This document shows, piece after piece, positions 518 through 54,435 of a stretch of 64,000 nt of DNA. How positions within the stretch are numbered: the first letter of the stretch is position 1; the number at the start of each line of letters is the position of its first letter. A program made the position numbers and the translations under genes. The stretch comes from Anniella stebbinsi. Taxonomy: Eukaryota; Chordata; Lepidosauria; Squamata; Anniellidae. The stretch is taken from contig JARDYH010000001.1 in the NCBI GenBank assembly GCA_029215795.1, forward strand, positions 194,439,654-194,503,653, read 5' to 3'. The notes below the pieces were generated by a model. It made no database searches, had not been told where the DNA came from, and saw nothing but the letters and a program-made list of their open reading frames with translations.

Positions 518-837
518 TAGGCTGACCATACGAAAAGGAGGACAGGGCTCCTGTAACTTTAACAGTTGTAGAGAAAAGGGAATTTCAGCCAGTGTCATTT
601 GTATGCAATTAGTTCCTGGTGAAATTCCCTCTTCATCACAACAGTTAAAGGTGCAGGGGCCCTGCCTTCTTTTGTATCTGGTCACTCTAGTATAGTGCCT
701 GCACCTTTAACTGTTGTGATGAAGAGGGAATTTCACCAGGGACTAATTGCATAAAAATGACACTGGCTGAAATTCCCTTTTCTCTACAACTGTTAAAGTT
801 ACATGTGCCCTGTCCTCCTTTTCATATGGTCAGCCTA
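518..837 (+). mobile_element. Palindromic hAT-type MITE, copy 1 (320 bp)
   Basis: A near-perfect inverted repeat. The left arm is about 518-657, the right arm about 698-837, and the asymmetric centre is 40 bp. It starts TAGGCTGACC and ends GGTCAGCCTA. Both ends carry the 'A' subterminal type (AAAAGGAGGACAGGG and its complement). The strand given is arbitrary and follows the centre, which reads CTCTAGTATAGTGCC. There is no coding capacity. This is the only full-length copy without an 8-bp flanking repeat, so one flank may have been rearranged. Assignment to hAT rests on the other copies. Confidence 0.9.
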
Positions 838-2389
838 GACAGACCTGTTTTCGATGTGCAGGGGAGTTTGTTCATTCGTTTGTTTGTTGTATGGAGGAGC
901 TGTCAGGTGAGCCTCTACCTGTAACCAGACATAGCACAGTATAGAAATAGGCTTATTACTTCAGTGGGAACTAGGCCTAAGAAACAGGAGTCTGAGCAGT
1001 GCTTTTCAGTGAAGTAGTGGGCTAGGCAGGTAGAAGCAGTCTCAGTTTTCTGTTCCTCTGGTTGAATTCTATGGGACAAATGCATTACAATCTGGAACAT
1101 AGACGACCCTCGTGCTAGATACTGAAGTTCCCACAGCCTGGGAGGAGGTTTAACTATCCCATTGAGGTCTCATCGGCATTGCTTTGCTTTCTCCTATATA
1201 AGTGAACGATTGCCCAAATTATTTCTATTTGGGTAATTTAAAGTACTGTAATTTGGGGCAGAACATATAGTGATACACTGGAAAAGATCCTGAAAGGGTT
1301 GTGTTCCTCTGTGCACACAGGAGCAGGGAGTCTTGCGAGATTCTCACCCTCCCTCCTTTAACGTCCCGCCAAGTCTCTGAGTTTGATTCAGATGGAACAT
1401 CCCCAGAGGAAAAGGCCACCAGGACCCTTGAATTCCAGCAGGGACCTCAAGAGTCTCAGCTGTAGAGCAGGGCCCTGCCACAACCCCAGTACATGCCAAA
1501 ACCAGGAAGAGTCAACATACATGCTGGATACCAGCCAGAGAAGATGTCCTGATCCTGGACCCCTCTGAATGCTGAGATCCAACTGTGTGGCCATTCCCTC
1601 ACGCTTCAGCTCACCCCTCAATACAGGATCGCTCAGGATCATACCCTGGATCCCAGAAACATTAGTCCTATTCAGGTGTTCAAAAGAGTGTTAAAATCCA
1701 TGTGTGAGGAGACAGGGAACTCCAGCCCTGTCCCCCTCCCTCACTGCATTTGCTGCCCTCAGCTCATGGAGGGCAACTGTCCGAAAAGGAGAGCCTCCTG
1801 TATCTGCAGGGGCTATCCAGTTTTCAGCATTCTAACTCGTGTGGAGATCCTCTCCTCGCCAGACAATCACAGGGGCAAGGCTGGAGTGTTCCTTCTCCTG
1901 TTGCTATTAACCTTTTTTTGAGAGCCTGAATTGGGTTAAAGACAATGATGAATATGAGCAGAAGCCAATGTGAGGATGTAGAACACAGCATGGGATCTTC
2001 CTGTTCCTAGCAGTGCTCCCAAGGAAAGGCCCTTGACCTAAGTGTGACCAAGGTCAACCCCCACTACTTCCTCAAGAATGGCAGGGCTGCACAGTCAGAT
2101 CTAAAATCCTTCCATAGTTCCCTGGACGGTACTAGTGGAACATTTATTCTGTTCAGCTCTTTCCTTCATACTCTAGCTGCCTGGCTGGACAGCTCCTCTG
2201 CCGTAAACAGCAATCTCATCTTCAAACCTGCTTTAGCCTTGCCTTGCCTGTAAGATAGGAAAACTGATCCACGTGGCTCCATCGTTGGCGGGAATGGGAC
2301 ATCTAGATCCTCTGTAAACATGGGCACTTTGTTGGTTGATAATAATATGAGGACTATTTGTTAAAGAAAGGGTTTATAGTGCAGTCTAT
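838..2389. other. Single-copy sequence, no gene seen
   Basis: No family recognised on either strand. Open frames of 60-84 codons occur on both strands around 1380-1920 but show no known motif and no convincing splice context. Confidence 0.5.
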
Positions 2390-2480
2390 ACATATCTATT
2401 CAGAAGCAAGTAACACTGAGCTCAATGGGGCTTACTCCCAGGTAAGTGGTATGGCACTGCAGTTTTAGGCAAGTAAGACA
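2390..2480 (+). repeat. Short dispersed squamate repeat (about 90 bp)
   Basis: This contains the phrase TCAATGGGGCTTACTCCCAG, preceded by an inverted partial copy (AAGTAACACTGAGCTCAATG). Similar 70-100-bp blocks occur at 11315-11402, 15834-15938 and 42750-42832. I know the pattern as a frequent short repeat in squamate DNA but cannot name its class. Confidence 0.55.
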
Positions 2481-2715
2481 GCAGTTTATTTAGGTATACT
2501 GAAACCCTTAGGTGCTGCTCCCTTTGCACAGAATTCATCTCCATGCATTTGGATTTTGACAGCTAGGAAGACATGGCACATGCAATCCTGCCACTAGCTA
2601 GCTATACATGAATATGTCCTGCTGGCATCAGTGGGATTTATGCAAGAGTAACTCGATGCAGAATTATCTTGACTCAAAACAACCGCACGTTAACTGCTAA
2701 ATGATTCCCCTTTCA

Positions 2716-2834
2716 GGGGTAGGCAATTGCTGCCCGCCTGAACATTTTGGTTTAATCCCATAATCCTTGACTATTGACCACGCTGGCTGTGCTTATGGAA
2801 GATGTAGTCCAAAACATCTGGAGGACACCAGGTT
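2716..2834. mobile_element. Short palindromic MITE (second hAT-like family)
   Basis: The ends are CAGGGGTAGGCAA and TTGCCTACCCCCTG. The interior carries diverged forms of the family words CATCTGGAGG and TGTAGTCCAAAACATC. The element is roughly palindromic and non-coding. No clear 8-bp flanking repeat is visible at this copy. Family membership is judged from the copies at 24402, 41149 and 47496. Confidence 0.65.
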
Positions 2835-3962
2835 GCCTACCCCCTGCTCTCAAGGTTCTCCCTGCCACATGGCAGCCGCTTACCCATGAGCAGCTCCCCA
2901 TAGTCGTGGGTTGCTGTGTACGTGGGTCTTCAAAGAAAAGGTCCATGCAGTCAACCCTTGCTCACTTAGTTTCATTATTTAAATGTTCTCTCAGGCTCCT
3001 AGGAGCTACGGATAGATAACCAACTCCAATGAAAATGGGGGATCATCTGAAGGACACCTCTGAGTCTGTTAAGAGATAAAACTCCCTGCCACCACTGCCC
3101 CTGCTGTGGATACATGATAAACTAAATACAAGCTTTTCTTGAAACACAAGCCTGAAACTTTCCAGAGCAGACAATGCCTAATCCTTTCTTGTTCTCATTC
3201 ACAGGCTATCTATTATGTCTGACAAGCTAAAGCCAACAAAACGCTCCTATGGGATGTCGTAAACTGGGCTAACACAGCATCTGAGCAAGACTGGGAGAAC
3301 TCAGTGCAATGTTCAGCAGGGCAGAATGACGTGGGGGTGGCCAAGAGACGTCCAAGCTAATGAACAGACAGCTTTGTCAAAAGGTGTTGTTGTTTTTTAA
3401 TTCAAGGGAGATAGCTGCCACATAACGGAACTGGGTGGGGTAATAGGGACATCCACCTAACATGGACATGGGTACAAAATGGCATCAGAAATCATGTAAT
3501 ATACTGGCGTACAGCATGTTGTATTTGTTAAAATAAAATTATATTATGCAATAATTGCTTTTCTCCAGTTTGGAATAGTTAGACATGTTTTCAAGGTGGT
3601 GGAAAATCCAGCTAGATATCTGTATAGTAAAATACATTCAGTCCTTGAATACAGATAGTGCAGGGAGGAGGAAATCAGAGACGTATGTCTCCCAGGTTTT
3701 ATGAATCGCTCCTCCAAAGGTGTTTCCCCAGAAGTAATTCCTCCCAAAAGGGAGGAACCGGGAGCAGGCTACAGACATCGAAATGACAAGCCGCTGCACT
3801 TAAATCATCCTAAAGTTCTCTTCTCTTTTATCAATGCAAACTGCACACTCACACACACACACACACCAAATATAACCTATAGAAGAAGAAATATTTTGCC
3901 ACACACAGAGGGATGAACTCTCATCTACTGCAGCCATCAATGGAATGGTGAATACATTACAG
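2835..3962. other. Single-copy sequence with a short (CA)n at 3850-3867
   Basis: No gene recognised. The only repeat seen is a short dinucleotide run. Confidence 0.5.
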
Positions 3963-4165: not shown

Positions 4166-4270
4166 TACAGTGTAATAATAAAAGTAGAAAGCATTTAAGA
4201 ATTTTCATGCATACAGAATCCCAAGGTTCTCTTGCTTACAAGAGTAAGTTTCTAGCCCTTAGTGCTGTTC

Positions 4271-4272
4271 AC

Positions 4273-4303
<31 letters not shown>

Positions 4304-6972: not shown

Positions 6973-7178
6973 CTGTTTATATGGGGGAACCTTTAGATGT
7001 TAGATCTTCTGCCTGCAGTCTGAAGTGAAACACTCCCTAGAGCAGGAGTAGGGGACCTGTGGCCTTCCAAATATTGGTAGAATCCAACTCCCATCACCTC
7101 CAGCTAGCATAGTCAGCAATTATGGGAGTTGTAGTCCAGGGATGGCATCCAAGGAAGACATGGTTAGACACCTGCCTA
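6973..7178 (+). repeat. Left arm of a long inverted repeat
   Basis: 6973-7152 is complementary to 7676-7855, with about six mismatches in 180 positions by eye. Weaker complementarity continues to about 7178 against 7650-7675 (shared word ACACCTGC). The arm has two parts: an unclassified segment (about 6973-7050, word CTGCAGTCTGAAG) and a short palindromic MITE (about 7055-7150, words CCAACTCCCATCA and GGGAGTTGTAGTCC). Confidence 0.85.
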
Positions 7179-7649
7179 AAGTACAAGGTCTTGGTTTATC
7201 ATTTTCTTATTGTCTTTATTTACCAAACATAGGTAAATTCTGTTAAATGTCTATTTTGTTTGTCTCTGGAGTGATTGCAATCTGCCCCCCCTCATCCCAG
7301 TTATAGAAACCTGAAGCATCACGGTGGTCCTTGTTCGCCATGGCCCTTGAAGGCCAAATAGATAGAGAAGGAGGACGTGGATGTGAGAGACCTTAGGTGC
7401 AAGTGCCACATGGCCAGGGCTGATGCCAAGCTTTTGAGGGCCCTTGGGCAAGACACACCATGTCACAGCTGCTGTTGCTCCTCCTCCCCTTTTCCATCAT
7501 TGCTACCTCTTGCATCCACTGCACCTCCTTCTCATCACCACCATTGTCTGGGCCACAGGGAGGGGCTGGGGAACAAGCAGGTTGCAGTGGTGAAGAAGAG
7601 GAGCAATTCTGGAAGACTCTTCAGGTGGTCCCTGCTGGGATGTGGAGCC
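7179..7649. other. Core between the inverted arms; no gene recognised
   Basis: A unique-looking spacer. Frames on the plus strand at 7377-7715 (112 codons) and 7460-7708 (82 codons) overlap each other and show no known domain. There is no sign of a transposase. Confidence 0.45.
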
Positions 7650-7855
7650 TCAGCAGGTGTCCAACCATGCCTACTTTGGATGCCATCCCTGGACTACAAC
7701 TCCAATAATTCCTGACTATGCTAGCTGGAGGTGATGGGAGTTGGATTCTACCAATATTTGGAAGGCCACAGGTCCCCTACTCCTGCTCTAGGGAGTGTTT
7801 CACTTCAGACTGCAGGCGGAAGATCTAACGTCTAAAGGTTCCCCCATATAAACTG
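7650..7855 (-). repeat. Right arm of a long inverted repeat
   Basis: The inverted partner of 6973-7178; 7676-7855 is the high-identity part. It carries the same composite of short MITE and unclassified segment in reverse order. Two related single segments occur elsewhere, at about 37525-37640 and 60605-60670. Confidence 0.85.
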
Positions 7856-9411: not shown

Positions 9412-9419
9412 GTCATTTG

Positions 9420-9739
9420 TAGGGTGACCAGATAAAATCCAGGTCAGGACTCATGTAACTTTAACAGTTGTAGAGAAAAGGGAATTTCAGCCAGTGTCAT
9501 TGGTATGCAATTAGTTCCTGGTGAAATTCCCTCTTCATCACCACTGTTAAAGTTGCAGGGGCCCTGCCTTCTTCTGTATATGGTCACTCCAGTATAGTGG
9601 ATGCACCTTTAACTGTTGTGATGAAGAGGGAATTTCACCAGGAACTAATTGCATACAAATGACACTGGCTGAAATTCCCTTTTCTCTACAACTGTTAAAG
9701 TTACATGAGCCCTGACCTGGATTTTATCTGGTCAGCCTA
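9420..9739 (+). mobile_element. Palindromic hAT-type MITE, copy 2 (320 bp)
   Basis: It starts TAGGGTGACC and ends GGTCAGCCTA, with arms of about 140 bp and a 40-bp centre in the plus orientation. Both ends have the 'B' subterminal type (AGATAAAATCCAGGTCAGG and its complement). Flanks are GTCATTTG (9412-9419) and GTTATTTG (9740-9747), a 7/8 match and a probable 8-bp target-site duplication. Non-coding. Confidence 0.93.
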
Positions 9740-9747
9740 GTTATTTG

Positions 9748-12599: not shown

Positions 12600-13500
12600 T
12601 TTCTTACCCGCCCCTCCCTATGGATCGAGGCGGGGAACAACATTAAATACAAAACAGCATAAAATACATAAAACTGATTAAAATGTATAAAACTAATGAA
12701 TTATTAAAAACATAAAACCAATACATTATTAAAAGGCATCTTAAAATTCAACTGGGTAGGCCGGCCGGAAGACTGTTAAGTTAGCGGATCTCTCCCGGCA
12801 GGCCATTCCACAGTCTGGGAGCGGCAGAAGAGAAGGTCCTCTGGGTAACAGTTGCCAGCCTAGTTTTTGCTGACTGGAGTAAGTTCTTCCCAGAGGACCT
12901 GAGTGTGCCGGGCGGACTGTACAGGAGAAGGCGATTCCGCAGCTAACCTGGACCCAAATCATGTAGGGCCTTAGAGGTAATAAAAACAACACTTTATACT
13001 TCGCCCGGAAACTGACTGGCAGCCAGTGAAGTGATTTTAAAATTGGTGTGATATGGTCACCTATAGGTGTATTGGTGACCAACCTGGCCACCATATTTTG
13101 AACTAATTGAAGTTTCCGGACTAGGCACAAAGGTAGCCCTACAGCGCACTGCAGAAGACGAGCCTCAAAGTTACCAGCGCATGCACTACTACCTTTAGGT
13201 CTTCCGACTCTAGGAAGTGGCGCAGCTGGCGTATCAGCCGCAGCTGATAGTAGGCACTCCTGGCCGTCGCATCTATCTGGGCTGTCATTTGGAGCCACGA
13301 ATCCAGAAGCACCCCCAAGCTGCGAACACAGTCTTTCAGAGGGAGTGTAACCCCATGCAGAACTGGTTGACACACCTCCAAACCCAGGTTGGGGCTTTTG
13401 ACATTAAGCACCTCCATCTTGTCTGGATACAGGTTCGGTTTGTTTTTCCTCATCCAGCCCATTACCACCTCCAAGCATTCATTTAAAGATCTTAGGTGTA
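12550..13500 (-). mobile_element. CR1/L2-clade LINE, 5'-truncated, with RT C-terminal fragment
   Basis: A minus-strand element with its (TTA)n tail at about 12550-12592. The 3' UTR signature CCCGCCTCGATCCATAGGG is visible as its complement near 12605. Conceptual translation gives the reverse-transcriptase C-terminal half: a LNECLEVVMGWMR-like segment, then SLGVLLDSWLQM, QLVQNMVARLVT, and HITPILKSLHWLPV. The catalytic YADD-containing palm lies upstream and is missing. Compared with the copy at the right edge of the window, a 4-bp loss near 13140 and a second frame change near 12985 break the frame. It is a dead, 5'-truncated copy, which is usual for this clade. Confidence 0.88.
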
Positions 13501-19704: not shown

Positions 19705-20024
19705 TAGGCTGACCATATGAAAAGGAGGACAGGGCTCATGTGACTTTAACAGTTGTAGAGAAAAGGGAATTTCAGCCAGTATCATTTGTATGCAATTAGT
19801 TCCTGGTGAAATTCCCTCTTCATCACAACAGTTAAAGTTGCAGGCACTATACTAGAGTGACCATATACAACAGAAGGCAGGGCCCCTGCACCTTTAACTG
19901 CTATGATGAAGAGGGAATTTCACCAGGAACTAAATGCATACAAATAACCCTGGCTGAAATTCCCTTTTCTCTACAACTGTTAAAGTTACATGAGCCCTGT
20001 CCTCCTTTTCATACGGTCAGCCTA
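19705..20024 (-). mobile_element. Palindromic hAT-type MITE, copy 3 (320 bp)
   Basis: It starts TAGGCTGACC and ends GGTCAGCCTA. The flanking 8-bp repeats are perfect: GGCTCACG at 19697-19704 and 20025-20032. The asymmetric centre reads GGCACTATACTAGAGTGACC, so the element lies in the reverse orientation relative to copy 1. Both ends are the 'A' type. Non-coding. Confidence 0.95.
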
Positions 20025-20059
20025 GGCTCACGGGGCAATTTTCTACTGTACCCCATGTA

Positions 20060-20492
20060 CCCTAAAAACATAAGAGCCATGGTGGATCAGACAAAAGGCT
20101 TATGTAGTTCAGCATTCTGTTCACACAGTAGCTAGCCAGATACCTGTGGGAAGCCCATAAGTAGGACATGAGTGCAAAGAACACCCTCACACTCATGTTC
20201 CCTAGCAACTGGTATACAAAGGAATATCCTCAGATTTTGGAGGTGATATACAGCCATCATGATTAGTAGACATTGATAGCTTTATTCTCCATGAATTTGT
20301 CTAATCCCCTTTTAAACCAGTTCAAGTTAGTGGCCATCACTACATTTTGTGGTAGCGAATTTCACTGTGTGAAGAAGTACTCTCTCTTTTTTCTGTCCTG
20401 AATCTCCCGCCATTCAGTTGCCTGTCCTTGATCTGTTCTAGTATTATGGGAGAAAAAACTTCTCCCCAAAGACTCTCTCAGTACCCTACACT
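20060..20492 (-). mobile_element. CR1/L3-type LINE 3' region, minus strand
   Basis: Read on the minus strand, this is the end of a CR1-clade LINE. A decayed coding tail includes KREYFFTQ near 20362-20385 (the 'FFT/SQR' motif before the stop region). A 3' UTR follows, whose plus-strand complement reads CATAAGAGCCATGGTGGATC and CCAGCAACTGGTAT-like words. A comparable plus-strand relative lies at 61925-62700. It begins about 30 bp beyond the palindromic MITE. Dead copy. Confidence 0.75.
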
Positions 20493-21060
20493 GGGATGAT
20501 CTGCATACCCAAATGCAAAACTGTCCTCCTCCCCGCCCTCCAACAGTGCAGCACATGTCACTCCAAATAGTCTTGTGGCTCACAGGAGTGGTTTGGGGGC
20601 AGGTGTAAGGGACCACAGCAGGAAAGTGGTGGGAACCCCCCCCCCCCATGCAAGCAGAATTCCATATGCAACTCTTTGGAGCCAAGCCAATGAATACAAA
20701 CCTGAGTATTCATTTTATATTTTCCAAACTGAGGAAAAACTGTTTTTTTAATGGATTTTCACAACTATTTATCAGGAAGCTTTCAGGCTACTGAATACAA
20801 ATGTGCAACGTCTTTTTGATTATCCTAAAATTGGTAGTTTTCCCTTTTAATAACCTCCGCATACTGATAGAAACCATCCTTTAGAGGAGGGTCACTTAAC
20901 CACCGCGGAAGTTTTAAATAAATAAAAGTATGGCATGCATTTCAGAAATTTTGTTATTCCAGAAATGCTACTTAAGAAGCAATCAGAAATCTCAACTTTT
21001 AAAAGCTACGGTTCCAATGTGAACTAGACTACCGTTACTCCGCCCGCATAAAATTTAATC
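20493..21060. other. Single-copy sequence, no gene seen
   Basis: Nothing identified. A poly(C) run lies at about 20637-20647. Confidence 0.45.
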
Positions 21061-21068
21061 CTCTACTA

Positions 21069-21388
21069 TAGGGTGACCAGATAAAATCCAGATCAGGGCT
21101 CATGTAACTTTAACAGTTGTAGAGAAAAGGGAATTTCAGCCAGTGTCATTGGTATGCAATTAGTTCCTGGTGAAATTCCCTCTTCATCACAACAGTTAAA
21201 GGTGCAGGGGCCCTGCCTTCTTTTGTCTATGGTCACTCTAGTATAGTGCCTGCACCTTTAACTGTTGTGATGAAGAGGGAATTTCACCAGGAACTAATTA
21301 CATACAAATGACACTGGCTGAAATTCCCTTTTCTCTACAACTGTTAAAGTTACATGAGTCCTGACCTGGATTTTATCTGGTCACCCTA
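21069..21388 (+). mobile_element. Palindromic hAT-type MITE, copy 4 (320 bp)
   Basis: It starts TAGGGTGACC and ends GGTCACCCTA. Perfect 8-bp flanking repeats CTCTACTA lie at 21061-21068 and 21389-21396. Plus-orientation centre, 'B'-type ends on both arms. Confidence 0.95.
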
Positions 21389-21480
21389 CTCTACTAGCCA
21401 CATATTGTGGCCACCAGGTATTTAACAAGCTATCAGTTTTCGCAGATGATGGCAACACAAACAAGTGGATATTTATTACT

Positions 21481-21485
21481 CTCTC

Positions 21486-21531
<46 letters not shown>
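21481..21531. repeat. (CT)n(CA)n microsatellite
   Basis: A short CT run is followed by about 20 CA units. It sits between MITE copies 4 and 5. Confidence 0.95.
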
Positions 21532-21533
<2 letters not shown>

Positions 21534-21592
21534 CTCATGGTTGATAAGCTGCATTCACCAGTTTTTCAGGTCTGTGCAAAGATAACCTACTC

Positions 21593-21911
21593 TAGGCTGA
21601 CCATATGAAAAGGAGGACAAGGCTCATGTAACTTTACCAGTTGTAGAGAAAAGGGAATTTCAGCCAGTGTCATTTGTATGTAATTAGTTCCTGGTGAAGT
21701 TCCCTCTTCATCACAACAGTTAAAGGTGTAGGCACTATACTAGAGTAACCAGTTACAAAATAAGGCAGGGCCCCTGCAACTTTAACTGTTGTGATGAAGA
21801 GGGAATTTCACCAGGAACTAATTGCATACAAATGACATGGCTGAAATTCCCTTTTCTCTACAACTGTTAAAGTTACATGAGCCCTGTCCTCGTTCTCATA
21901 TGGTCAGCCTA
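21593..21911 (-). mobile_element. Palindromic hAT-type MITE, copy 5 (319 bp)
   Basis: It starts TAGGCTGACC and ends GGTCAGCCTA. Perfect 8-bp flanking repeats ACCTACTC lie at 21585-21592 and 21912-21919. The centre is in reverse orientation and both ends are the 'A' type. A 2-bp deletion in the right arm (GACATGG for GACACTGG) slightly unbalances the palindrome. Confidence 0.95.
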
Positions 21912-21919
21912 ACCTACTC

Positions 21920-22332
21920 CTTTCAAGAAAATCCACAAATCCTAATGATATTAAGGAGATTCATGTTTTTCGTGTTGCAGAATGAAACTGGTTCTGTCAC
22001 CTGACCACTTATTTTACAATACTAGATGTATATTCTGACAGGCTACGGTAATACAACGCAAGCTTCTTCTTTTTTTTCTCTGGATGGAAACTACAACTGA
22101 AAACAATGAAACACACAAAAGCTCTGCTGTACTGCATCTGTGAAAAAAATATTCTAAAGGGACTCTGCTGTGAGGAAGGTTAAGGCAGAACCCATCGCTG
22201 TTAACCATCTCTATGGTTACTGGTTTAGAAAAAGATCAGACATTCAACAGAAAAGAGCAATGGGGGAAGGAGAGCAAAAAAATAATCTCAACTAATGTAG
22301 TCAGCCTCAGCATGTATGAAAAAATATGAATT
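21920..22332. other. Single-copy sequence, no gene seen
   Basis: Nothing recognised. Confidence 0.45.
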
Positions 22333-22402
22333 TGTTTTATTTATTACATTTCTATACTGCCCAATAGCCAAAGCTCTCTGGGCGGTTCATAAATAAAACA
22401 AA
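22333..22402 (-). mobile_element. CR1/L2-clade LINE 3' end fragment
   Basis: TTTATTACATTTCTATACTG followed by CCAAAGCTCTCTGGGCGG is the complement of the conserved 3' end seen at 3963-4165 and 31330-31681. Only about 70 bp remain. Confidence 0.7.
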
Positions 22403-23099
22403 CCCAGAGCCTTCAAAACTCATTCTGGAAATGTTCAGTGGAATAAAGGCCTGCTTATCTTCTCTTCACCTTATGTTCCTTTATAGAGAGCCAACATGCA
22501 AGTATCTTACCTGCTCATCTCATTTTGACAATATGTCCGTTCAAAATCTTCAAAATTTAATTGCCCATTTCCATTGTACTTTACTGTCTATTCCAAATTG
22601 TGTTGTATTGTTGGCACATTTCATCAACTTGCTAATAATAATTATGCACTCCCTCTCCCTAGGTATCATCACAGCAAATGGCATTTGTCTTTCAGCTTAT
22701 CTGAGAGCTCAGTTTATCTGAGAGCTCTTCAATACTAACACCATCCACAGTTTCCACAATAATGTCTCAACTGTATAAGATTTTGTTTCCATTTCCACAC
22801 AATTTCAGGTAATGACGGGTCTCTTTCTTACTTGCTTGCGTTATAATAATGTGGAAAGGCAGAGAGGTCAGATTAATTGACCAGTGCTATCAGAAATAGT
22901 ACTGATGATAACTAACAAGAGAAAGCAGAATGAATGAAGAATAGTCAATTAAACCCACTGTGTAATTCAACCATTTCTATGGTGCAGAAGATCCCCCATT
23001 GGCCAATATATGCTTGGAAGTGCTGGACATTTTGTGGATGTACACGAATTTACTTGAAATGACTAAGCATATTTGCATTAATAACTAACCTTGCCATTA
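22403..23099. other. Single-copy sequence, no gene seen
   Basis: A 96-codon frame at 22431-22721 (+) has no recognisable domain. Nothing else identified. Confidence 0.4.
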
Positions 23100-23107
23100 G
23101 CTGTTCA

Positions 23108-23426
23108 TAGGCTGACCAGATAAAATCCAGGTCAGAGCTCATGCAACTTTAACAGTTGTGGAGAAAAGGGAATTTCAGCCAGTGTCATTTGTATGCAATT
23201 AGTTCCTAGTGACATTCCCTCTTTATCACAACAGTTAAAGGTGCAGGCACTATACTAGAGTGACCATATACAAAAGAAGGCAGGGCCCCTGCAACTTTAA
23301 CAGTTGTGATGAAGAGGGAATTTCACCAGGAACTAATTGCATACAAATGACACTGGCTGAAATTCCCTTTTCTCTACAACTGTTAAGTTACATGAGTCCT
23401 GACCTGGATTTTATCTGGTCACCCTA
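23108..23426 (-). mobile_element. Palindromic hAT-type MITE, copy 6 (319 bp)
   Basis: It starts TAGGCTGACC and ends GGTCACCCTA. Flanks are GCTGTTCA (23100-23107) and GCTGATCA (23427-23434), a 7/8 match. The centre is in reverse orientation with 'B'-type ends on both arms. Confidence 0.93.
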
Positions 23427-23434
23427 GCTGATCA

Positions 23435-24393
23435 CAAAGTTGGTCTTCCTGAATAAAGAATTTTCCATACACTTTTGGTTGATATATCAAGAGTAGCCAT
23501 TGCATTTCTTTTGGGATAGCCAGATACCTACATTAAGGTGATGGCTGGATCACTCCTTTTCTATCTCCCATTGCACTTTCTCATTTCAACCAAGAATGTC
23601 CTTTAGATGACTCCATCCATGCATCCAGTTCATAGAGGAAAAGCCACAGAAAAAGGCATCCGCAATGGCTGCCTCACAAATATAGGCCAACCTCTCCCTC
23701 GAGCTGGAGTATGAGTTTTGCAAGATTTTTTTTCCTTTGGGCAAGGCAGTTAACCTTTTAATGATTCTAGCAATTCAGTTTTGTCTTCTTGTTGTTGTGT
23801 TCTGCATTATACAATTGTAACCCATCTCAAACTTACAGGCAGATTTGATTAGAAATTGTAATGAAATATAAATAAAAATAAAAATTCACTAGTTACCAGA
23901 AAGCACCAGATTGGCTCCATGTTGTTTCCACCTGTCCTTCATACAGTTATTTGTGTCAAAGATCATCTTTTGTTTAGGAAAAGGCTGCAGCAGGAAAGAC
24001 TGCATGCCAGTTCCCCTTCCATTTAGACTAGCTTCCTTTCCCATCAGCTCCTTCCAAGCTGCTCCAAATTCCTCACCCCATCAAAGCAGAATTCTCAGTG
24101 AAGGTTGAAGCATCTCCAATTTGTATAATGTTTCACAAATGACTTGCTCAGCTAATTTCCCCCGAATCAATTTGTGCATGTGAATCCATGTAAACCTCAA
24201 TAAATGTTCTGAAGCAGAGTTATCCTTTCCAATCTTGTCTCTGTGTGGATCTTGTTAGATGGGACCTGCTTTCTTAGCCATACAGGTCCCTTGAGGGAAT
24301 GAGAGTCTTGTGAGAATGTACATCTATCTCAACGGGAGCACATCCTGTAAGGGACTTTCTCCTTTCCAGGGACCTTACGAGGACACTCTTGCC
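23435..24393. other. Single-copy sequence, no gene seen
   Basis: No family recognised. Short frames only. Confidence 0.45.
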
Positions 24394-24401
24394 ATCTAGA
24401 C

Positions 24402-24535
24402 CTCGTGTGGGCAATGTGGCCCTCCAAATTCTTTGGCCTACAACTCCCATCATTTCTCACCATTGGCTATGCTGGCTAGGGCTGATGGGAGTAATAGGCC
24501 ATAACATCTAGATGGCCATAAGTTGCCCAGCCCTG
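24402..24535. mobile_element. Short palindromic MITE (second hAT-like family, 134 bp)
   Basis: The left end TGTGGGCAATGTGGCCCTCC mirrors the right end GGCCATAAGTTGCCCAGC. The centre includes CTACAACTCCCATCA and GCTGATGGGAG. The flanking octamers ATCTAGAC (24394-24401) and ATTTAGAC (24536-24543) match at 7/8, supporting hAT-type insertion of this family. Non-coding. Confidence 0.8.
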
Positions 24536-24543
24536 ATTTAGAC

Positions 24544-25575
24544 CAAAGTTTCTAATATTACCCAAGCTGCGCACCTGTTGATTTGGTAAAACATGTTGGG
24601 TTCTGTGTCAGCACTACTGGAGGGAAGCGTACCATAGCAAAATTGGGATTAAGAACTTTTACATACATTTTCTCTCATTAAACCCTGAATTGAGACAAAG
24701 CTCAGTAAAATGTTCTGCATTTTACATCAAAGGATATAGTGAAATAGTCCTGATGCATGTCAGTTCAGTTTGTACTATATTTTCCTGAAAGACGCCATTA
24801 TGTTTTATTAATTCCCTTGTCATGTTTCACTACGAGAGCTCTAGCTACAGCTTACAAAGTATTAGATTTGTAAATAAAATATTGATTTACAGGACTAAAA
24901 GGAATGATTTTGTTGATTTGAGTTAATTCCAGCTCATTCCGTTATATCATGGAAAATAAGCATCGAACTCTGATGGCCCTAAACGTCTGTTAGGCTGGCA
25001 GTCACCAGAATGCCGCTCAAACTATGCTAGGTTGTGCATGTCACTCAGAGGGGATCCTGGGTAATAAAAATGGCAGCCAGGAGCAGTAAACACTGGGACA
25101 AGCGTTGCTGCCGCTGTTATAGCCTAGTGGTGCCAGTAAAAGGAAGGTGAGTTCCACTTCCCAAGTCAAGTCAAACGTTCTCACTTGGGGACATTTAGCT
25201 CAGCCCTAAAAAGAACTGTATTCGAATCACACCCCAGTCACATTCAAAACTGTTGGTCAATAAATGGTCTTTCTGCACTCTGAAGTTCCTGTGTTTGGTG
25301 CCTTCCCTTTTTTCCCCCCACCACATACATAAGCAAATGAAGTGCATGAAGAAGTGGTGTAGGAGAAAGTACTTATAATCTTTCCCTGTCCACCATTTTC
25401 CCATTGCAACTTCCCTGCCACACCTTTTCCCAGCCCTGTGTTCGCAACAGTAAACACAGAACTGGAACCCTGCACACTTCCTCCTTTGCTGCTTCTACAC
25501 ACAAAGATGCCCCCCACATGAAGCTGGCTGCCTACTTACTTACATGCACATATTACTTGCATTTGTTTGGAAGGC
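24544..25575. other. Single-copy sequence, no gene seen
   Basis: Nothing recognised. Minus-strand frames at 25195-25517 show no motif. Confidence 0.45.
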
Positions 25576-25657
25576 AGAAGTAGGATACCAATCCAATCCG
25601 GCCCTTCTGGGGTCCCAATCCAGCCCTCTGGGGTTCTCCAGAGGTCATATTCCCTTC
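25576..25657. repeat. Fragment of an unclassified dispersed repeat
   Basis: Words such as CCAATCCGGCCC and GGGGTCCCAATCCAGCCC recall the left part of the CAGGGGTG element at 56149-56887. The fragment is cut by the palindromic MITE at 25666. A further piece (TTTGCCTTTGCCCCTCACC, GGAATGTCGCCCC) follows at about 26515-26600. Confidence 0.4.
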
Positions 25658-25665
25658 CCTTGGCT

Positions 25666-25985
25666 TGGGGTGACCAGATGAAATCCAGGTCAGGGCTCAT
25701 GTAACTTTAACAGTTGTAGAGAAAAGGGAATTTCAGCCAGTGTCATTGGTATGCAATTAGTTCCTGGTGAAATTCCCTCTTCATCACAACAGTTAAAGGT
25801 GCAGGGGCCCTGCCTTCTTTTGTCTATGGTCACTCTAGTATAGTGCCTGCACCTTTAACTGTTGTGATGAAGAGGGAATTTCACCAGGAACTAATTGCAT
25901 ACAAAAGACACTGGCTGAAATTTCCTTTTCTCTACAACTGTTAAAGTTACATGAGCCTTGACCTGAATTTTATCTGGTCACCCTA
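25666..25985 (+). mobile_element. Palindromic hAT-type MITE, copy 7 (320 bp)
   Basis: It starts TGGGGTGACC (one change from TAGGGTGACC) and ends GGTCACCCTA. Flanks are CCTTGGCT (25658-25665) and CCCTGGCT (25986-25993), a 7/8 match. Plus-orientation centre, 'B'-type ends. Confidence 0.93.
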
Positions 25986-26371: not shown

Positions 26372-26507
26372 TGCAGGGCTCCTGCAGCTTTAACTGTAGT
26401 GATGAAGAGGGAATTTGACCAGGTGCTGCATGCATACAAATGACACCTTTTCAATACAACTATTAAAGATACAGGAGCCCTGTCCTCTTTTCCATAGGGT
26501 CACCCTA
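26372..26507 (+). mobile_element. Monomeric relative of the palindromic MITE
   Basis: A single-arm version of the 320-bp element. GCAGGGCTCCTGCAGCTTTA leads into TGATGAAGAGGGAATTT, GCATACAAATGACACC, ACAGGAGCCCTGTCCTC and a right terminus GGGTCACCCTA. There is no inverted second arm. The left terminus is unclear (possibly near 26358) and no 8-bp flanking repeat was found. It is more diverged than the dimers, which suggests an older monomeric ancestor or sister family. Confidence 0.75.
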
Positions 26508-35015: not shown

Positions 35016-35334
35016 TAGGCTGACCACATGAAAAGGAGGACAGGGCTCATGTAACTTTAACAGTTGTAGAGAAAAGGGAATTTCAGCCGGCATCATTTGT
35101 ATACAATTCGTACCTGGTGAAATTCCCTCTTCATTACAACAGTTAAAGCTGCAGGGGCCCTGCCCTCTCTTGTATCTGGTCACTCTAGTATAGTGCCTGC
35201 AACTTTAATTGCTGTGATGAAGAAGGATTTCACCAGGTACTAACTGCATACAAATGATGCCAGCTGAAATTCCCTTTCCTCTGCAACTGTTAAAGTTACA
35301 TGAGCCCTGTCCTCCTCTTCAGATGGTCAACCTA
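35016..35334 (+). mobile_element. Palindromic hAT-type MITE, copy 8 (319 bp)
   Basis: It starts TAGGCTGACC and ends GGTCAACCTA. Perfect 8-bp flanking repeats GGGGTACA lie at 35008-35015 and 35335-35342. Plus-orientation centre, 'A'-type ends. It shows more substitutions than most copies (CCGGCATCATT, ATTCGTACC), so it is probably among the older insertions. Confidence 0.95.
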
Positions 35335-39985: not shown

Positions 39986-41148
39986 TTTAAAAATATATTT
40001 AGATATTTAGATATAACAGGGGGGAAAGAACAGTCCCCTAACAACTGGGACAGAATAGACTGTTACAAAAGACTTGGTTAGTACAATTTTAGAGAAAAAT
40101 GGGGGGGAGTGGGGTGGAAGTCTGCTGTGTAATCTTCCTTTAGCTGTTATAATGTCCAGATGCTCAAAGCAGAATCAGCGGGCATATATTGTTGAAAATC
40201 TGGTTGTGATGTATATTGAACAAATCTCCACCATATGGCATAGAATGCTAACTGTTCTGTCTTTCCTCGAATCGAGAGCAAATCATGGCTTGTATTTTCT
40301 AATATTGCCTCAGAACATATATTCCGATACCATGCAGGTAAATTCAAATTATCCAGTTTTTTCCCACTGTTGTGTGATTGTCTGGTGAGTGGCAATTAAC
40401 AAAAATGATAGCAAATCTTTACATTTAATATGTCCATTAGATCCTTTATATATTGATAATATAGATAGGTAATACAGTAGTTGTTAATAGTGGCAAGTCA
40501 ATACCACACATATTTTACCAAAAGCTCGAAGCAACCAAGGGTGGACACATATACAAATTTAGCTTTTCTAAATTTGTGCAACTTAGTGGTGTAAGTCCTA
40601 GAATTTAATTGCCTGCATCTGCCTAAAAACTCTTAAACTGTACATTTGGTGAGGTGATCAAGTCACTCTCCGTTATACATTTCCCCCTTTAAAAACTAGA
40701 TATAATGGACGTACAATATTATTTTCAAAAATTCTGGCTAAACCTTAACTGCTTGTTTATTTGATAATTCACAACGCTAAAAATATATTTCCCAGACTTA
40801 ATTAGTGATAGAGAAATGCATAATTGAGAGTCTGTAATTTTTCATCAGATATCCAACACAACCTGATAAAAATGACTCATTCCCTCAAGCTGGAGTGTTA
40901 ATAAGAAAGTGATATCTAACTGGTTTCTGAGAAAACCAGTCTCCCTGGACCTTCGGAAACATGTGTTACCAAAACAAAACTTGTCCTAATTTTGATCTAA
41001 GAATGCTGACAACAAGGATGGCCGGGGGCAAAGCTAAGGAAGACCAGGAATGGGGCCTAACAAAATCTGGTTGGTTAAAAGAGACAAAGAAGAATTTGGC
41101 AATTTTAGGTATATGGTCAATCACAAACATTATTGTCGCCTCTGGATA
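39986..41148. other. AT-rich single-copy sequence, no gene seen
   Basis: Frames up to 104 codons (40074-40388, +) without known motifs. Nothing repetitive recognised. Confidence 0.4.
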
Positions 41149-41279
41149 TAGGCAACTTGTGGTCCTCCAGATGTTTTGGCCCACAACTCCCATCAGTCAT
41201 AGCCAGCATAGCCAATGGTGACAGATCATGGGAGATGTATGCCAAAACATCTGGAGGGCCACACGTTGCCCACCACTGA
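41149..41279. mobile_element. Short palindromic MITE (second family)
   Basis: GGCAACTTGTGGTCCTCCAG and CATCTGGAGGGCCACACG form the two ends, around CCACAACTCCCATCAG. The right terminus is GTTGCCCACCACTG. No clear flanking octamer. Confidence 0.75.
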
Positions 41280-42485
41280 AAAAAGGAAAAGACAGAGATG
41301 AGGAGATTATAGTTGTCAAAGCGGGACCTTGAACCAGAGTTTTAGATGAGATGGTCCATTGCTCATATTTGCCAGATGCAAAAAAAATCCCCAAATGTCA
41401 GTCCACCATCCCCACTATGGTGGCATATATAGAATAATTAACTAAACAACTGACAATTTGCAGCCTTTTAAAGATATTCTAAAGTATGCTGCCTGAGGAA
41501 GGCTACCTTGCCCTGCCTAATGGTAGGGTTGGCCCTGTCCTTTAATGGGGTGGCCCAAGAAAATGACTGGAAGGAAACACTGTGCTTATCTGATGATTAG
41601 AGCTTCTTTAAAATGTCTTGCTTTTCTGGTTTTGATTCAGGACCTTGTTTTCATATATAAACTCATCCTATGTTTCCTTTCCTTAGTGAATGCCCCCTCA
41701 TCACGCACCCTTTATTGACATTTATTTTACATGCTAATCTTATTTATATTTATATTTATAAGGATAGATATAGGTATAGGCAGATTGCTGTAAGACATGT
41801 GCTGTGAAGAGCTGCAATTGGAAACGCTCAAATGGTAGCCAGCTCCGACCTCATAAAATAATATGTAATCGAAGTCGATGATTTGTAAACGACCAAAAGT
41901 AAACCTCTTGAAGCTGCTGCTAAGTCCCCTTGCTGTCCCGCCTCTGGCACTGCGTGGGCATCCAGGTTACACAACCCTTTTGACAATGTGCACAGAGAAA
42001 CCATTTAACATGCTGGTATCCATTTCTCCAAGAAATTAGTTTAATGAGCTCTCGTTTTCCAGCATAGTTAGACGGAGAACAATTGTCTCTTTTTTCTCTG
42101 TGAACCTAGAAAGCAGATGAATATGGTGGGGTGAGGTCGGTTTGCCTGAGTCTTTGGCACATTGAGATAGGCAGAAGAATCAATTAAGTAGTCAAGTTCA
42201 ACGGGAAAAAATGAGACACGCTGAAAACAATCAAGGGGAAACGTATGCATAACAACATGAGTTACACTATTCACCATTGTATTCTTCTTCATAGCTCTTT
42301 TCTCTACATTAGGGACAAGGGAACTTTCAGTTTTAAAAAAGTTGTTTCTGAAAACCCTTGTGTTCTAGACCGTGCAAAAAGCTATGAACAAATATTCTTT
42401 GGGATTTTTTTTGTCACTGCAGATTTAGTTTGCCTAAAAAGGGCAGAGAGTGGGCACCGGACAACAATTTCTTCAGTGTTATTTA
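41280..42485. other. Repeat-poor AT-rich stretch
   Basis: No gene recognised. The part at 41690-42070 is free of repeats and has a texture like conserved noncoding DNA (for example AATGGTAGCCAGCTCCGACC). That is only a suspicion. A 147-codon frame at 42245-42688 (+) runs through a (TTA)n tract and has no domain. Confidence 0.35.
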
Positions 42486-43694: not shown

Positions 43695-44244
43695 CAATGC
43701 GCTGTACATAGGGCTACCTCTGTGCCTAGTCCGGAAACTTCAACTAGTTCAAAATATGGCAGCCAGGTTGGTCACTGGTACACCTAGGGGTGACCATATT
43801 ACGCCAGCTTTAAAAATCGCTCCACTGGCTGCCAATTAGTTTCCGGGCGAAGAATAAAGTGTTGGTCATTACCTTTAAAGGTTTGGGTCCAGGTTACCTG
43901 CGGGATCGCCTTCTCCCATATAATCTGCCCCGCACGCTCAGGTCCTCTGGGAAGAACTTGCTACAGTCGGCCAAGACTAGGCTGGCAACCGTTACCCAGA
44001 GGACCTTCTCTTCTGCCGCTCCCAGACTGTGGAATGACCTGCCGGAGGAGACTCGTCAACTTAACAGTCTTTTAGAATTTAAGAAAGCTATAAAGACTGT
44101 TCTCTTCCAGCAGGCATATCCAGTGGAATTTTAGAATGTTTTTAGGATGTTTTAATGCAGTTTTAATAATGTGTGTCATGTTTTAATCAGTTTTATATCC
44201 AAACTCGATCCAAACGGAGAGGCAGGTAAGAAATAAATAAAGAA

Positions 44245-44280: not shown

Positions 44281-44282
<2 letters not shown>

Positions 44283-46440: not shown

Positions 46441-47495
46441 TACAGAGTATCTTTCAGAGTACCTTTTTTATAACCGAAACAGCAACTGGTGTGCTATTCA
46501 AGCAGCATAAACTTACTGAAACAGTGTAATTTAAAGTCTTGAGCGGATTTAATGCAGAAACGTTGGCAGTTGTCCTGGAGCCAATGAATCAGTTAAAGGG
46601 AAATATTCTTCTGCAGTTCTCATTGACTGAAAACATACCACATACTCAGAGATCAAGAATGAACAAAGAACTTGTCAACTGCAAAGGAGCTTGAGTATTA
46701 ACTGAGAATAGCAGGAGGCTACTATGCTATTCCCAGGGCCTACTAATGCACACTGTTGGTGCAAAATAAATATTTGTCTAGATACTGTTAATGCTGTTAA
46801 CAGTATTAGCACTGTTTCAAAACAGCCATTTGCACTGCTGGAACTTATTGTGCATGTAGAAAGGAAGAAGTCTGAATCATTGGTAAGCTCGTTCTTACTT
46901 TTGGGCTTACAATGACAAATGTGTAATGGTATCTCCCTTTTCGCTCTTCCTCAAATGGCTTAGGTTTTATTTCATATTAACAAAATCCCAATAATAATGG
47001 TGGAAGAGGCTGATGCATGGAAGGCCTTTATATCGCAAAACCCTATTGTGGGGTATAATGTATCCCTTGGAGCTCTGAGGGAAAGGGAATGATACAGCTT
47101 CATGTAGCATTACTGGAGTTAGGGATTCCCCCTCAGTTATTTCTAGATAAGAAATATCTAGAAGATAAGCTCCCTTAATTTGAATATGGGACATTTTAAC
47201 CTCTGTTGTTAATTAGACTGTGACATAACACAGCTTGGACTACTTATCCTTCCTCCCAAGCTTTCCTCTCCTCAGCTTCCCTCCATATCTGTCAACAGCA
47301 TCAGCATTCACCCTGTTGACCAGGCACACATTGCTCCCTACATTCTGTCATTCTCAACTCATGTTGCTTCCTGAACAAAACTTAAAAATAACAAAACAAA
47401 AAGTCCCTTCCTCTCCATTTTCTCAGCTAAAACTCTGGTTCAAACTCTGGTGATCTCCTGCCTCAACTACTATAATCTTCACTACCACAATACAA
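46441..47495. other. Single-copy sequence, no gene seen
   Basis: Nothing recognised. Confidence 0.4.
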
Positions 47496-47585
47496 CTCCC
47501 ATGATCCATCACCATTGGTTATGCTGGCCAGGGTTGAAGGCGGTTGTAGGCCAAAACATCTGGAGGGCCACAAGCTGCCCATCTC
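47496..47585. mobile_element. Short palindromic MITE fragment (second family)
   Basis: ATACAACTCCCATGATCC and GGCCAAAACATCTGGAGGGC are present with the right end CCACAAGCTGCCCATC. The left end is incomplete. Further pieces of the family lie at about 47655-47750 and 48136-48185. Confidence 0.65.
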
Positions 47586-51189: not shown

Positions 51190-51345
51190 TGCATTGACTA
51201 AGCAGCCACAAAGATGAATTAATTCTGTTTCCAAAACTGTTGACCCTGCAGCTGTATTCCTGGAAACAACAATGAAAACATCATCACTACCATCGCCATT
51301 GATGTCACCTTCTTCAAAATTCCAGGTGAATAATTCTCGCGTTAT
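51190..51345 (-). other. Possible exon-like fragment with FG-GAP-type motif
   Basis: The minus-strand frame (open 51163-51495) contains GDINGDGSDDV, which fits the calcium-binding loop of FG-GAP/integrin-alpha-type beta-propeller repeats (GD-x-NGDG-x-DD-hydrophobic). The rest is not recognisable and splice sites are weak. Its upstream part overlaps a transposon end. It could be a lone exon, a pseudo-exon or chance, and no gene is claimed. Confidence 0.2.
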
Positions 51346-51449
51346 AGAGCAAAATGAGTACTTTGAATACAAATTAATTGTAAGCAAGTTAGTTCTTGCC
51401 ATCTTAAACTGCTGAACATGTTTAAGTAATGTGTAGAACGCAAGACAAT

Positions 51450-51677
51450 GGCTGAATTCGGACAACACGATAGTCAATGGTGGGGTAATAATCAACTTTA
51501 CAGTTGTTCATCTAGGGGCACTCCCCACACAACATGGTAATAAATAATCAACTGTGGTGTGGATTAGGATCAGCGCTGAGTTGACTATGGCAGCATTCGG
51601 ACAACACGATAGTCAATACAACTGACGATTGTTTCCCCCCCCCCCCCAGTTGCTTATTGTGTCGTCCGAATTCAGCC
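51450..51677. mobile_element. TIR element with 3-bp flanking repeat (Harbinger-like), short copy
   Basis: The left end GGCTGAATTCGGACAACACG is the inverse of the right end CGTCCGAATTCAGCC. Flanking AAT triplets lie at 51447-51449 and 51678-51680. A second left-end sequence (GGCAGCATTCGGACAACACG) starts inside at 51589, so either a mini copy inserted into an older one or an internal deletion joined two elements. Non-coding. The 3-bp duplication suggests a PIF/Harbinger-like mechanism, though the TWA preference is not seen. Confidence 0.7.
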
Positions 51678-51786
51678 AATGTGGAGGATAAAGCAAGGAG
51701 ATACAAGCTAGAATTACCTTCAATATATTTTAATGGGAGAGGGGTAGGCATATGCTTAAGTGTCTCACTAACATCAGTGAGACTTA

Positions 51787-51787
51787 A

Positions 51788-51823
<36 letters not shown>

Positions 51824-52082
51824 TTATTTATTTCTTACCCGCCTCTTCCTCCAGATCGAGGCGGGGAACAACATCAATACAAACAATATAAAATACATAC
51901 AACTGATTAAAAGCATTTAAAATAAATATATTATTAAAATATCAACCAAGTCTTAAAATTCGACTGGGTAGGCCTGCCGGAAGAGATCAGTCTTAATAGC
52001 TCTCTTAAATTCCGGAAGACTGGTAAATTGGCGGATCTCTCCCGCCAGGTCATTCCACAGTCTGGGAGCGGCAGAAGAGAAG
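51787..52082 (-). mobile_element. CR1/L2-clade LINE 3' end, 5'-truncated
   Basis: The (TTA)n tail lies at 51787-51822, followed by TCTTACCCGCCTCTTCCTCC (complement of the 3' UTR). The RT C-terminus reads LFSSAAPRLWNDL on the minus strand. Truncated at 52082, directly beside another copy in the same orientation. Confidence 0.88.
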
Positions 52083-52110
52083 AGACAATGCTTTTCTTTC
52101 ATCATCATCA

Positions 52111-52572
52111 ATAATAATAATAATAATGTTTATTTATAACCCGCCTCTCCCTACGGATCGAGGTGGGGAACACAATACACATACAAACATGACAGAGTTA
52201 AAAAATTAAAACAAGAGAAACACATCATTAAAACAGTTAAAATTCATCCGGATAGGCCTGTCGGAAAAGAACAGTCTTCACGACTCCCTTGAATTCGTGA
52301 AGACTGTCAGTTTGTCTAACCTCCTCCGGCAGACCATTCCATAGTCTGGGAGCCATAGAAGAGAAGGACCTCTGGGTAACACTCACCAGCCTAGTTCTGG
52401 CTGGCTTGAGTATGTTCTTCCCAGAGGACCTAAGAGTGCGGGGCGGATTGTATGGGAGAAGGCGATCCCGTAGGTAGCCTGGGCCCAAACCATGTAGGGC
52501 TTTAAAGCTAATAACCAACACTTTATACTTCGCCCAGAAACTGACTGGCAGCCAGTGAAGTGATTTTAAAAC
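52111..52572 (-). mobile_element. CR1/L2-clade LINE, 5'-truncated, RT C-terminus in frame
   Basis: The tail lies at 52111-52128. The minus-strand frame 52237-52602 is open from within the RT: LKSLHWLPVSFWAKYKVLVI, then FKALHGLGPGYLRDRLLPYN, MAPRLWNGLPEEV and the QAYPDEF end followed by a stop. There is no internal stop, so this copy is fairly young, but it lacks everything upstream of the C-terminal domain. Confidence 0.9.
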
Positions 52573-52881
52573 TTCCCCAACACACAAAGGGTTAAATAGC
52601 AAAGTTTCCAGAGCAAACGGTACTTCTCTTCTTTGGAGTGGGGTGGGGGGTGGGGAGAAAAGGAATTACTATCTAAATTCAAGCACAGCCCAAATCTGTC
52701 CAATACCTCTGCCACTTCTTTATTAAAATGTGCTAAGAAGAAGACGGCTCCTCTTCATGCCAAGATTTGGCCAGCAAGTGAATGGAGCTTCAGTTCAGCT
52801 GCAGCCACCCTCTTGACACAATTCGTAGACAGCCCTGTTTTGCTCACATCTGCTTTGTCCCCCAATCAAACAAAGGCCTTG
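52573..52881. other. Single-copy sequence, no gene seen
   Basis: Nothing recognised. Confidence 0.4.
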
Positions 52882-52940
52882 TTTTTATTTATTTATTTAT
52901 TACATTATTATACCACCTAATATCCGAAGCTCTCTATTCC
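52882..52940 (-). mobile_element. CR1/L2-clade LINE 3' end fragment
   Basis: TTTATTTATTTATTACATTA, then ACCACCTAATATCCGAAGC and TCTCT. Complement of the (AATA)-tailed 3' end, diverged. Confidence 0.65.
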
Positions 52941-54099
52941 CCTCTGCAACAAGGAAGCCTATCAAGCCCATCCTTTCACTGAGCAGTCCCTCCCCTTGGG
53001 AGACATTCCCTGCCTTCTGCTCTCCCCCAGCTGAGCACAACCAGGGCTGCTAAAGATGTAAGTGGAGAAGGAGTGGCTTCCTCAGTGCTCACCACTGACC
53101 CAAATAAGGCCTGCCAGTACCCTGTCCTCAAAAGGCCTCCTGCGTCATATCAAGATTTTTGTGGCCTACAAAGTGATGTCAGATTGACCAAGGAAGACGG
53201 GACAAACTTTGGGACAATCCAGCTCCGTAAAAGTAGCTTGAGTAACAGAAGTCACATCTTCCTCTCATTGTAAGTACTTCAAGCTGTCCACCTTAAGAGC
53301 CTAAAGCTATTGATTGAGTGACTGACGACAACATGCTGAATTCTGAAATTTATGAAAAATCCCATTCTACCTGGATTGTGCCAAAAAAGGACTGAACCCA
53401 CTCTTGGCCACAGTCCCCTAAATTTCTCTGAACTTCCACAACCAAAAAAACCCTTGATTTTTTTCCCTAACATGGTACATGAACCTATTCTGTAGGTATG
53501 TTGTCATCTCCAATACATCTAGTGCTGTACTTCACATGCACAGCTTCACAGATCTGTACAGACATTAACACCAGAGAGAAATGTAGGGGGCACAGATAAC
53601 CTGTGCTGTTCCTGACTTCCACACGTTGATCAGAACTTATGAATAGGGCAAGTGTACGCCCCAACACTCATAGGCTCTAAAAACACGGTCTGGAGGGTTA
53701 TTGTCACACATAGGTCCCTGTAGCCAAGCTCTAATCAGTGTTTGGGGGTCAGAGGTAGGAGCAGAAGCTGCAACCCATTCACACATTCATTTCTGCACTG
53801 TTTGACCATTTTACAGGGCTTGTGTAAAATGCTTGCAGTTTAGGTCAGATTCCATGTAACTTTTATTCATATGTAGTTAATCCAAACAAAAGAAGTGTGA
53901 AGATACAAGATTCAGTAACAGAAACAGAAGATATCCTTTTAAGAAAAAGAGACTGGCTACAGAATATATAAAAACAGAACTGGCAGAAAAGCAGAAGCCA
54001 CACAAAGAGATGCCATTCAGGAAATAGCACTACCATATCATTATGTTTAAGAATTTTCCTCATATTTTACAGAGAGGTTTTAGTAAAGCAAGAGAGACT
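52941..54099. other. Single-copy sequence, no gene seen
   Basis: Nothing recognised. Confidence 0.45.
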
Positions 54100-54107
54100 T
54101 TCTATGT

Positions 54108-54427
54108 TAGGGTGACCAGATAAAATCCAGGTCAGGGCTCATGTGACTTTAACAGTTGTCGAGAAAAGGGAATTTCAGCCAGAGTCATTTGTATGCAATT
54201 AGTTCCTGGTGAAATTCCCTCTTCATCACAACAGTTAAAGTTGCAGGGGCCCTGCCTTCTTTTGTATATGGTCACTCTAGGATAGTGCCTGCACCTTTAA
54301 CAGTTGTGATGAAGAGGGAATTTCACCAGGAACTAATTGCATACAAATGACACTGGCTGAAATTCCCTTTTCTCTACAACTATTAAAGTTACATGAGCCT
54401 TGACCTGAATTTTATCTGGTCACCCTA
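54108..54427 (+). mobile_element. Palindromic hAT-type MITE, copy 9 (320 bp)
   Basis: It starts TAGGGTGACC and ends GGTCACCCTA. Perfect 8-bp flanking repeats TTCTATGT lie at 54100-54107 and 54428-54435. Plus-orientation centre, 'B'-type ends. Confidence 0.95.
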
Positions 54428-54435
54428 TTCTATGT

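Follow-up and report, generated by a model that had tools for sequence, protein, structure and literature searches.

Palindromic elements in the window

The window, i.e. the whole 64-kb stretch of Anniella stebbinsi DNA analysed here (contig JARDYH010000001.1), contains nine near-palindromes, each 319–320 bp long, with pairwise identities of 84.7–97.2% and predicted single-strand fold energies of −210 to −256 kcal/mol. These elements very probably belong to a non-autonomous, hAT-like family of palindromic miniature inverted-repeat transposable elements (MITEs) that were moved in trans, and they occur with two types of ends, A and B. All nine palindromes listed in the initial annotation were present with the lengths and start positions given there, and together with one truncated single unit they account for 4.7% of the window, in line with its figure of nearly 5%.

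Target-site duplications of 8 bp were identified at eight of the nine copies, five of them exact (8/8) and three at 7/8, which reproduces the earlier count; the copy at 518 is the one without a duplication, its flanks matching at 1/8. Flank matching exceeded chance solely at length 8, when lengths 4–7 and 9–12 remained close to chance, and the probability of at least eight of nine copies having flanks at 7/8 or better is ~1.6e-26. Eight copies start as TAGGNTGACC, the exception being the copy at 25666 (TGGGG).

Ends of type A on both sides (A/A) were found in the copies at 518..837 (+ strand; no matching octamers, candidate recombinant), 19705..20024 (− strand; duplication GGCTCACG, 8/8), 21593..21911 (− strand; ACCTACTC, 8/8) and 35016..35334 (+ strand; GGGGTACA, 8/8), the last of which is the most diverged window copy, 8.1% from the consensus of its own group. 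Ends of type B on both sides (B/B) were found at 9420..9739 (+ strand; GTCATTTG/GTTATTTG, 7/8), 21069..21388 (+ strand; CTCTACTA, 8/8), 23108..23426 (− strand; GCTGTTCA/GCTGATCA, 7/8), 25666..25985 (+ strand; the TGGGG copy; CCTTGGCT/CCCTGGCT, 7/8) and 54108..54427 (+ strand; TTCTATGT, 8/8). Five of the nine copies begin within 6 kb (19705–25985), with a post hoc P of 0.028 for uniform placement. The monomer reported along with the palindromes is present at 26373..26507 (− strand) as a piece of a single unit, but it comprises 135 bp, aligned to positions 1–148 of the 172-bp unit with a 13-bp gap and without the last 24 bp.

Rfam and tRNA scans of the window produced no matches, nor did Pfam searches with five window open reading frames, and a 22-mer of the arm had no matches in prokaryote and viral sequence collections.

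Unit structure and the two end types

Oriented by its centre, the element consists of a 172-bp unit M (TAGGSTGACC...GGTCACTCTA; positions 1–172), followed by GTATAGTG and by a reverse copy of M running from approximately position 140 back to 1. As the reverse copy lacks about the last 30 bp of M, the 320-bp element is bounded on both sides by the same end of M. The unit is in turn an imperfect palindrome, with a score of 144 against its own reverse complement when the best of 300 shuffles reached 58, and a free-standing single M of 172 bp was found elsewhere in the genome (L015:3614-3785). The element looks like the product of two successive inverted doublings. Older copies have other centres: L010 and L025 share GTATCTGGTCA followed by AGARGGCAGGG, and the centre of L022 is shorter. 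These centres may reflect dimers that formed separately, or one perfect dimer that was trimmed in different ways.

Copy number and divergence, both proposed as checks in the initial annotation, were determined in the genome of 1,890,728,001 bases (1.89 Gb) in 91 contigs. The 13-mer TAGGGTGACCAGA, present also at the end of L029, has 51,703 occurrences against 53 for the reversed control, and a strict B/B end pattern fits 23,391 places with a control count of 0, so that uniform full-length palindromes, previously regarded as unusual, are not so in this genome. In a spread sample of 20 hand-placed 10-kb loci, of which 11 contained the family, the palindromes covered 6,359 of 200,000 bp (3.2%; bootstrap 1.7–4.9%), which extrapolates to ~60 Mb of the genome. 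Median divergence from the consensus was 2.5% for B copies (range 1.2–3.4, n = 39) and 3.8% for A copies (range 2.5–10.3, n = 10). With its length of 320 bp, terminal inverted repeats, high copy number and no coding capacity the family is a MITE. Literature searches returned no description that was recognised as this palindromic family, and none of the 19 papers with a text match to TAGGGTGACC was, by title, concerned with transposons. Duplications of 8 bp were present at 18 of 20 B/B copies elsewhere in the genome with 1-nt slack (15 of 20 strictly), and at 11 of 16 copies in the spread sample (9 of 16 strictly), against 3 matches in 342 when flanks were taken from different copies.

Columns 5, 12, 15, 19, 20, 21 and 25 distinguish the majority ends A (ATATGAAAAGGAGGACAGG) and B (AGATAAAATCCAGGTCAGG), the diagnostic columns and bases being identical in both arms. 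Among the window copies, the left arm had five fully fixed differences and the right arm six, four of them common to both arms (P 5e-6). The two ends of a copy were of the same type in all 25 free-standing full-length copies, i.e. the nine of the window and 16 of the spread sample, not selected by end, which comprised 12 A/A, 13 B/B and no A/B (a few labels by eye); the probability under random pairing is 1/C(25,12) = 1.9e-7. One B and one A end were identified on a 302-bp piece within a composite in L015. The main end forms are TAGGG and TAGGC, and many B copies have one of each. Among 20 B/B copies read (L054–L073), 16 had a readable main centre, and 10 of these carried G at base 5 of one end but C at base 5 of the other, with the same placement relative to the centre, when one copy had the opposite arrangement. 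Of the seven diagnostic columns, five are A-like in the truncated M of the window, one is B-like and one resembles neither type, and the inner end of M has a mixed A/B character, for which reason the A ends look ancestral and the B ends derived.

A second, GC-rich family of the same genome combines TAGGSTGACCAGAT ends with palindromic stretches in its interior. One copy of 819 bp (L016:2864-3682) has exact 8-bp duplications GGCAATAT; a 618-bp relative in L029 had no duplication in the scan as used for L016. In comparison with the left ends of these two copies, on which the comparison with the GC-rich family rests, the first 25 bases of B matched at 23 and 24 of 25 positions apart from one 10-bp gap. 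When bases 11–25 were shuffled, 0 of 1000 shuffles were as good for either copy, whereas the corresponding values for A were 282 and 471 of 1000. This resemblance suggests that the B end was captured from the GC-rich family. B is also weakly similar to the GC-rich right end (15 and 12 of 1000 shuffles as good), so that either end may have been the source of the capture.

According to the favoured explanation, an A-ended lineage would have acquired its B ends from another TAGGGTGACC family by the capture of ~25 bp; the captured end would then have spread to the second arm through copying inside the palindrome. In the nine window copies, the two arms of a copy are closer to each other than by chance (1,040 of 362,880 pairings as close), and this closeness stems from columns 1–27 (2,880 of 362,880), when columns 28–139 gave 49,908 of 362,880. 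Pairings within A (6 of 24) or within B (120 of 120) revealed no excess of arm closeness in the window copies. Arm copying as a general process is weakened by several observations within subfamilies: the two arms within a copy are not more alike than arms taken from different copies, one-sided changes in the window amount to 75 against four mirrored ones, and the 49 copies together have 371 one-sided against 36 mirrored changes. All four mirrored changes of the window were in copy 35016, in reference to the pooled arm consensus of its own group. Since changes are mostly one-sided and a copy's own arms are no closer, arm-to-arm copying has not been frequent in resident copies. Mirrored changes in the 49 copies were moderately above expectation (B 21 vs 13.9, A 15 vs 5.6), and with an excess of merely this size in-place gene conversion between arms was rejected as the main process.

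Matched ends could also arise with no arm copying, if A and B palindromes had formed twice, from A-type and B-type monomers. The other centres in L010, L025 and L022 indicate that inverted dimers, or their centres, did arise more than once. However, the A and B copies have the centre GTATAGTG and the truncation point in common, and a fresh dimer would not show the G/C difference at base 5 with the orientation that prevails in the B/B copies, which makes two independent formations unlikely.

Mixed-ended copies and probable recombination

A strict mixed A/B pattern fits 2,006 places in the genome (control 0), corresponding to 7.9% of the copies in which a strict B end is present. From 42 mixed-ended copies fetched, a sample that was not random, 40 were readable, and a duplication was found in five of them (3/19, 2/19 and 0/2), against 18 of 20 B/B copies (Fisher p 5.4e-9) and 37 of 45 homo-ended copies from the B/B set, the window and the spread sample (Fisher p 5.3e-11). 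Because the 8-bp duplication is mostly missing, most mixed-ended copies appear to have arisen when dispersed copies recombined, unmatched flanks round a chimeric element being what an exchange between two such copies leaves. Applying 35/40 to the 2,006 places gives an estimate of ~1,750 mixed-ended copies without duplication, for the strict pattern and from a non-random sample.

We infer that most A/B copies arose later than the B ends themselves, when A/A copies recombined ectopically with B/B copies. Such an exchange would leave an element whose left flank comes from one insertion and whose right flank comes from a different one, and A/B copies would thus mark points of rearrangement. As palindromes align in either orientation, deletions and inversions would be open to every pair of copies.

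Some mixed ends were part of larger arrangements. The L093 composite consists of a B/A copy, 28 bp and an A/B copy, with exact GTCCAGTG outside both outer B ends, and the 477-bp composite at L015:3309-3785 has CTATATAC on both sides; both composites may have moved as units. In L040 (C1:9960535-9961275 and onward), three B/A copies in tandem are separated by identical 19-bp spacers, perhaps as the start of a satellite, and the outer duplication is merely 7/8 with a 1-nt shift, by eye.

As the main alternative to recombination, some of the mixed-ended copies that have no duplication could stem from misjoins in the assembly, and a misjoin, too, yields the unmatched flanks by which such copies are defined. 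That assembly errors at repeats explain most of them is nevertheless quite improbable: in an assembly of 91 contigs, repeats of 320 bp were presumably spanned by reads, and the L093 and L015 composites keep an exact duplication outside the multi-copy unit, as real events would, with L040 keeping its less exact one.

Target sites, affiliation and comparison with known systems

The ends of hAT elements follow the pattern YARNG, and the Ac group has the target consensus nTnnnnAn. The Ac-type pattern was found in 0 of 8 window duplications and in 4 of 37 overall. TA at duplication positions 4–5 occurred in 10 of 37 when 2.3 were expected from the TA frequency of the window (P 7.5e-5), which is a preference, not a rule. 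The target consensus given for Buster elements is nnnTAnnn (PMC3517528). Hence the 8-bp duplications and the TA excess both support the hAT-type transposition initially proposed, and a hAT transposase, perhaps Buster-like as judged by target, would have cut and pasted the element.

Other observations count against this affiliation. The proposal had also relied on starts fitting YARNG, and this part stands for TAGGG ends only, as the A-type TAGGC ends break the pattern. An autonomous hAT partner, on which the end form TAGGGTGACCAGAT would be expected, was likewise called for, but no transposase with TAGGSTGACC ends was found near the four PF05699 matches whose surroundings were read, of 150 scored; two of the four are copies of a single young hAT family, and for the remaining two the stretch covered may fall short of the ends. 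In the octamer of the Hermes transposase, the left end is described as bound via several BED domains and the right end via none, and the complex that was solved with two left ends is said not to be capable of supporting transposition (PMC10368747). By analogy, two like ends might help capture by a transposase, and the Hermes complex with two left ends speaks against a simple use of them.

The very young hAT family accounts for 97 of the PF05699 matches listed, all on C1 and with an identical 61.8 bits, and 92 of those 97 listed have stop-free frames of 841–871 amino acids. Examples are L096:1026-3554 and L097 (C1:122946800 and C1:96277460), and both BED and dimerisation domains were identified in the frame examined. 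This family was considered as a partner but not taken up, with no TAGGSTGACC-like end at the edges of the block common to the two copies; two such ends lie outside the shared block, in one copy only. The 693-amino-acid frame in L102, which looks like a host ZBED-type gene, has one TAGGGTGTCC-like match inside it.

Transposition by a superfamily other than hAT that also makes 8-bp duplications, for instance a P-like one, would agree with the lack of a partner among the four surroundings, and such duplications are not exclusive to hAT, those of Galileo (P superfamily) being given as 7–8 bp (PMC4168063). Still, hAT domains are common in the genome, all 150 scored PF05699 candidates being over or at the family cut-off. 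The TAGGG ends fit the hAT end pattern and TA at positions 4–5 fits the Buster target, and we regard an origin outside hAT as very doubtful. That the copies are parts of a larger segmental repeat, to which the clustering of five window copies could be taken to point, is refuted beyond reasonable doubt by flanks and duplications that differ between the copies read and by consistent ends; the contrary outcomes named in the initial annotation, i.e. inconsistent ends, missing 8-bp duplications or a larger segmental repeat, did not occur.

Besides the palindromes, the window contains a second, partly self-complementary repeat family with a CAACTCCCATCA-like core (2711-2839, 24407-24536, 41145-41281 and 47490-47585), to which a stretch near 7020-7180 is related, and a 201-bp inverted pair, 96% complementary and 477 bp apart (6975-7175 and 7653-7853). 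Reverse transcriptase fragments, which we take to be L2-like, were identified at 12741-13403, 43814-44134 and 52237-52665, the last with relatives in metagenome records, fishes and Anolis sagrei.

Transposon-driven rearrangement of vertebrate chromosomes is usually inferred from few breakpoints. In this family the end types match within almost every sampled copy, by which recombinants are labelled internally, and a single genome could reveal at what rate, over what distance and in which orientation exchanges took place. This family also illustrates the growth of a short element by repeated inverted doubling, and it appears to have replaced its ends by those of another family. Taken as a whole, we give an even chance to the view that a palindromic MITE making up ~3% of the genome has been an orientation-free substrate of recombination, with its ~1,750 duplication-less mixed copies forming a catalogue of past deletions, inversions and translocations, and with B ends by which a non-autonomous element took over the ends of another family and spread to 23,391 or more places.

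Examples of palindromic MITEs, of Buster-type hAT MITEs and of rearrangements linked to MITEs have been described before. The elements resemble Mar, a hAT (Buster) MITE of Drosophila willistoni, in being short and non-coding with imperfect terminal repeats and 8-bp duplications nnnTAnnn, but Mar has the end CAG(G/A)GGTAGGC and another host, and the string "palindrom" is absent from the main text of its description (PMC3517528). The palindromic MITE-like elements of Anopheles gambiae, reported as six of 32 clusters, similarly are without likeness to known transposon genes, but those clusters are 430–1678 nt long and their superfamily is unassigned in that report (PMC3212995). Another hAT-derived MITE, gadMor-hAT-1784 of Atlantic cod, shares internal inverted repeats, units of 167–169 bp and a link to rearrangements; it is described as long tandem blocks at the breakpoints of two inversions (PMC12368964), whereas the present copies are mostly dispersed singles with two end types. 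Galileo of Drosophila has in common the long inverted repeats, ectopic recombination, two subfamilies and duplications of similar length, and it differs in superfamily, hosts and structure (PMC4168063). What is unusual here is the combination of two-step doubling, matched end types with apparent end capture, a share of several percent of the genome and ends that reveal exchange; the family is ordinary in kind, and unusual in its scale and its recombination footprint.

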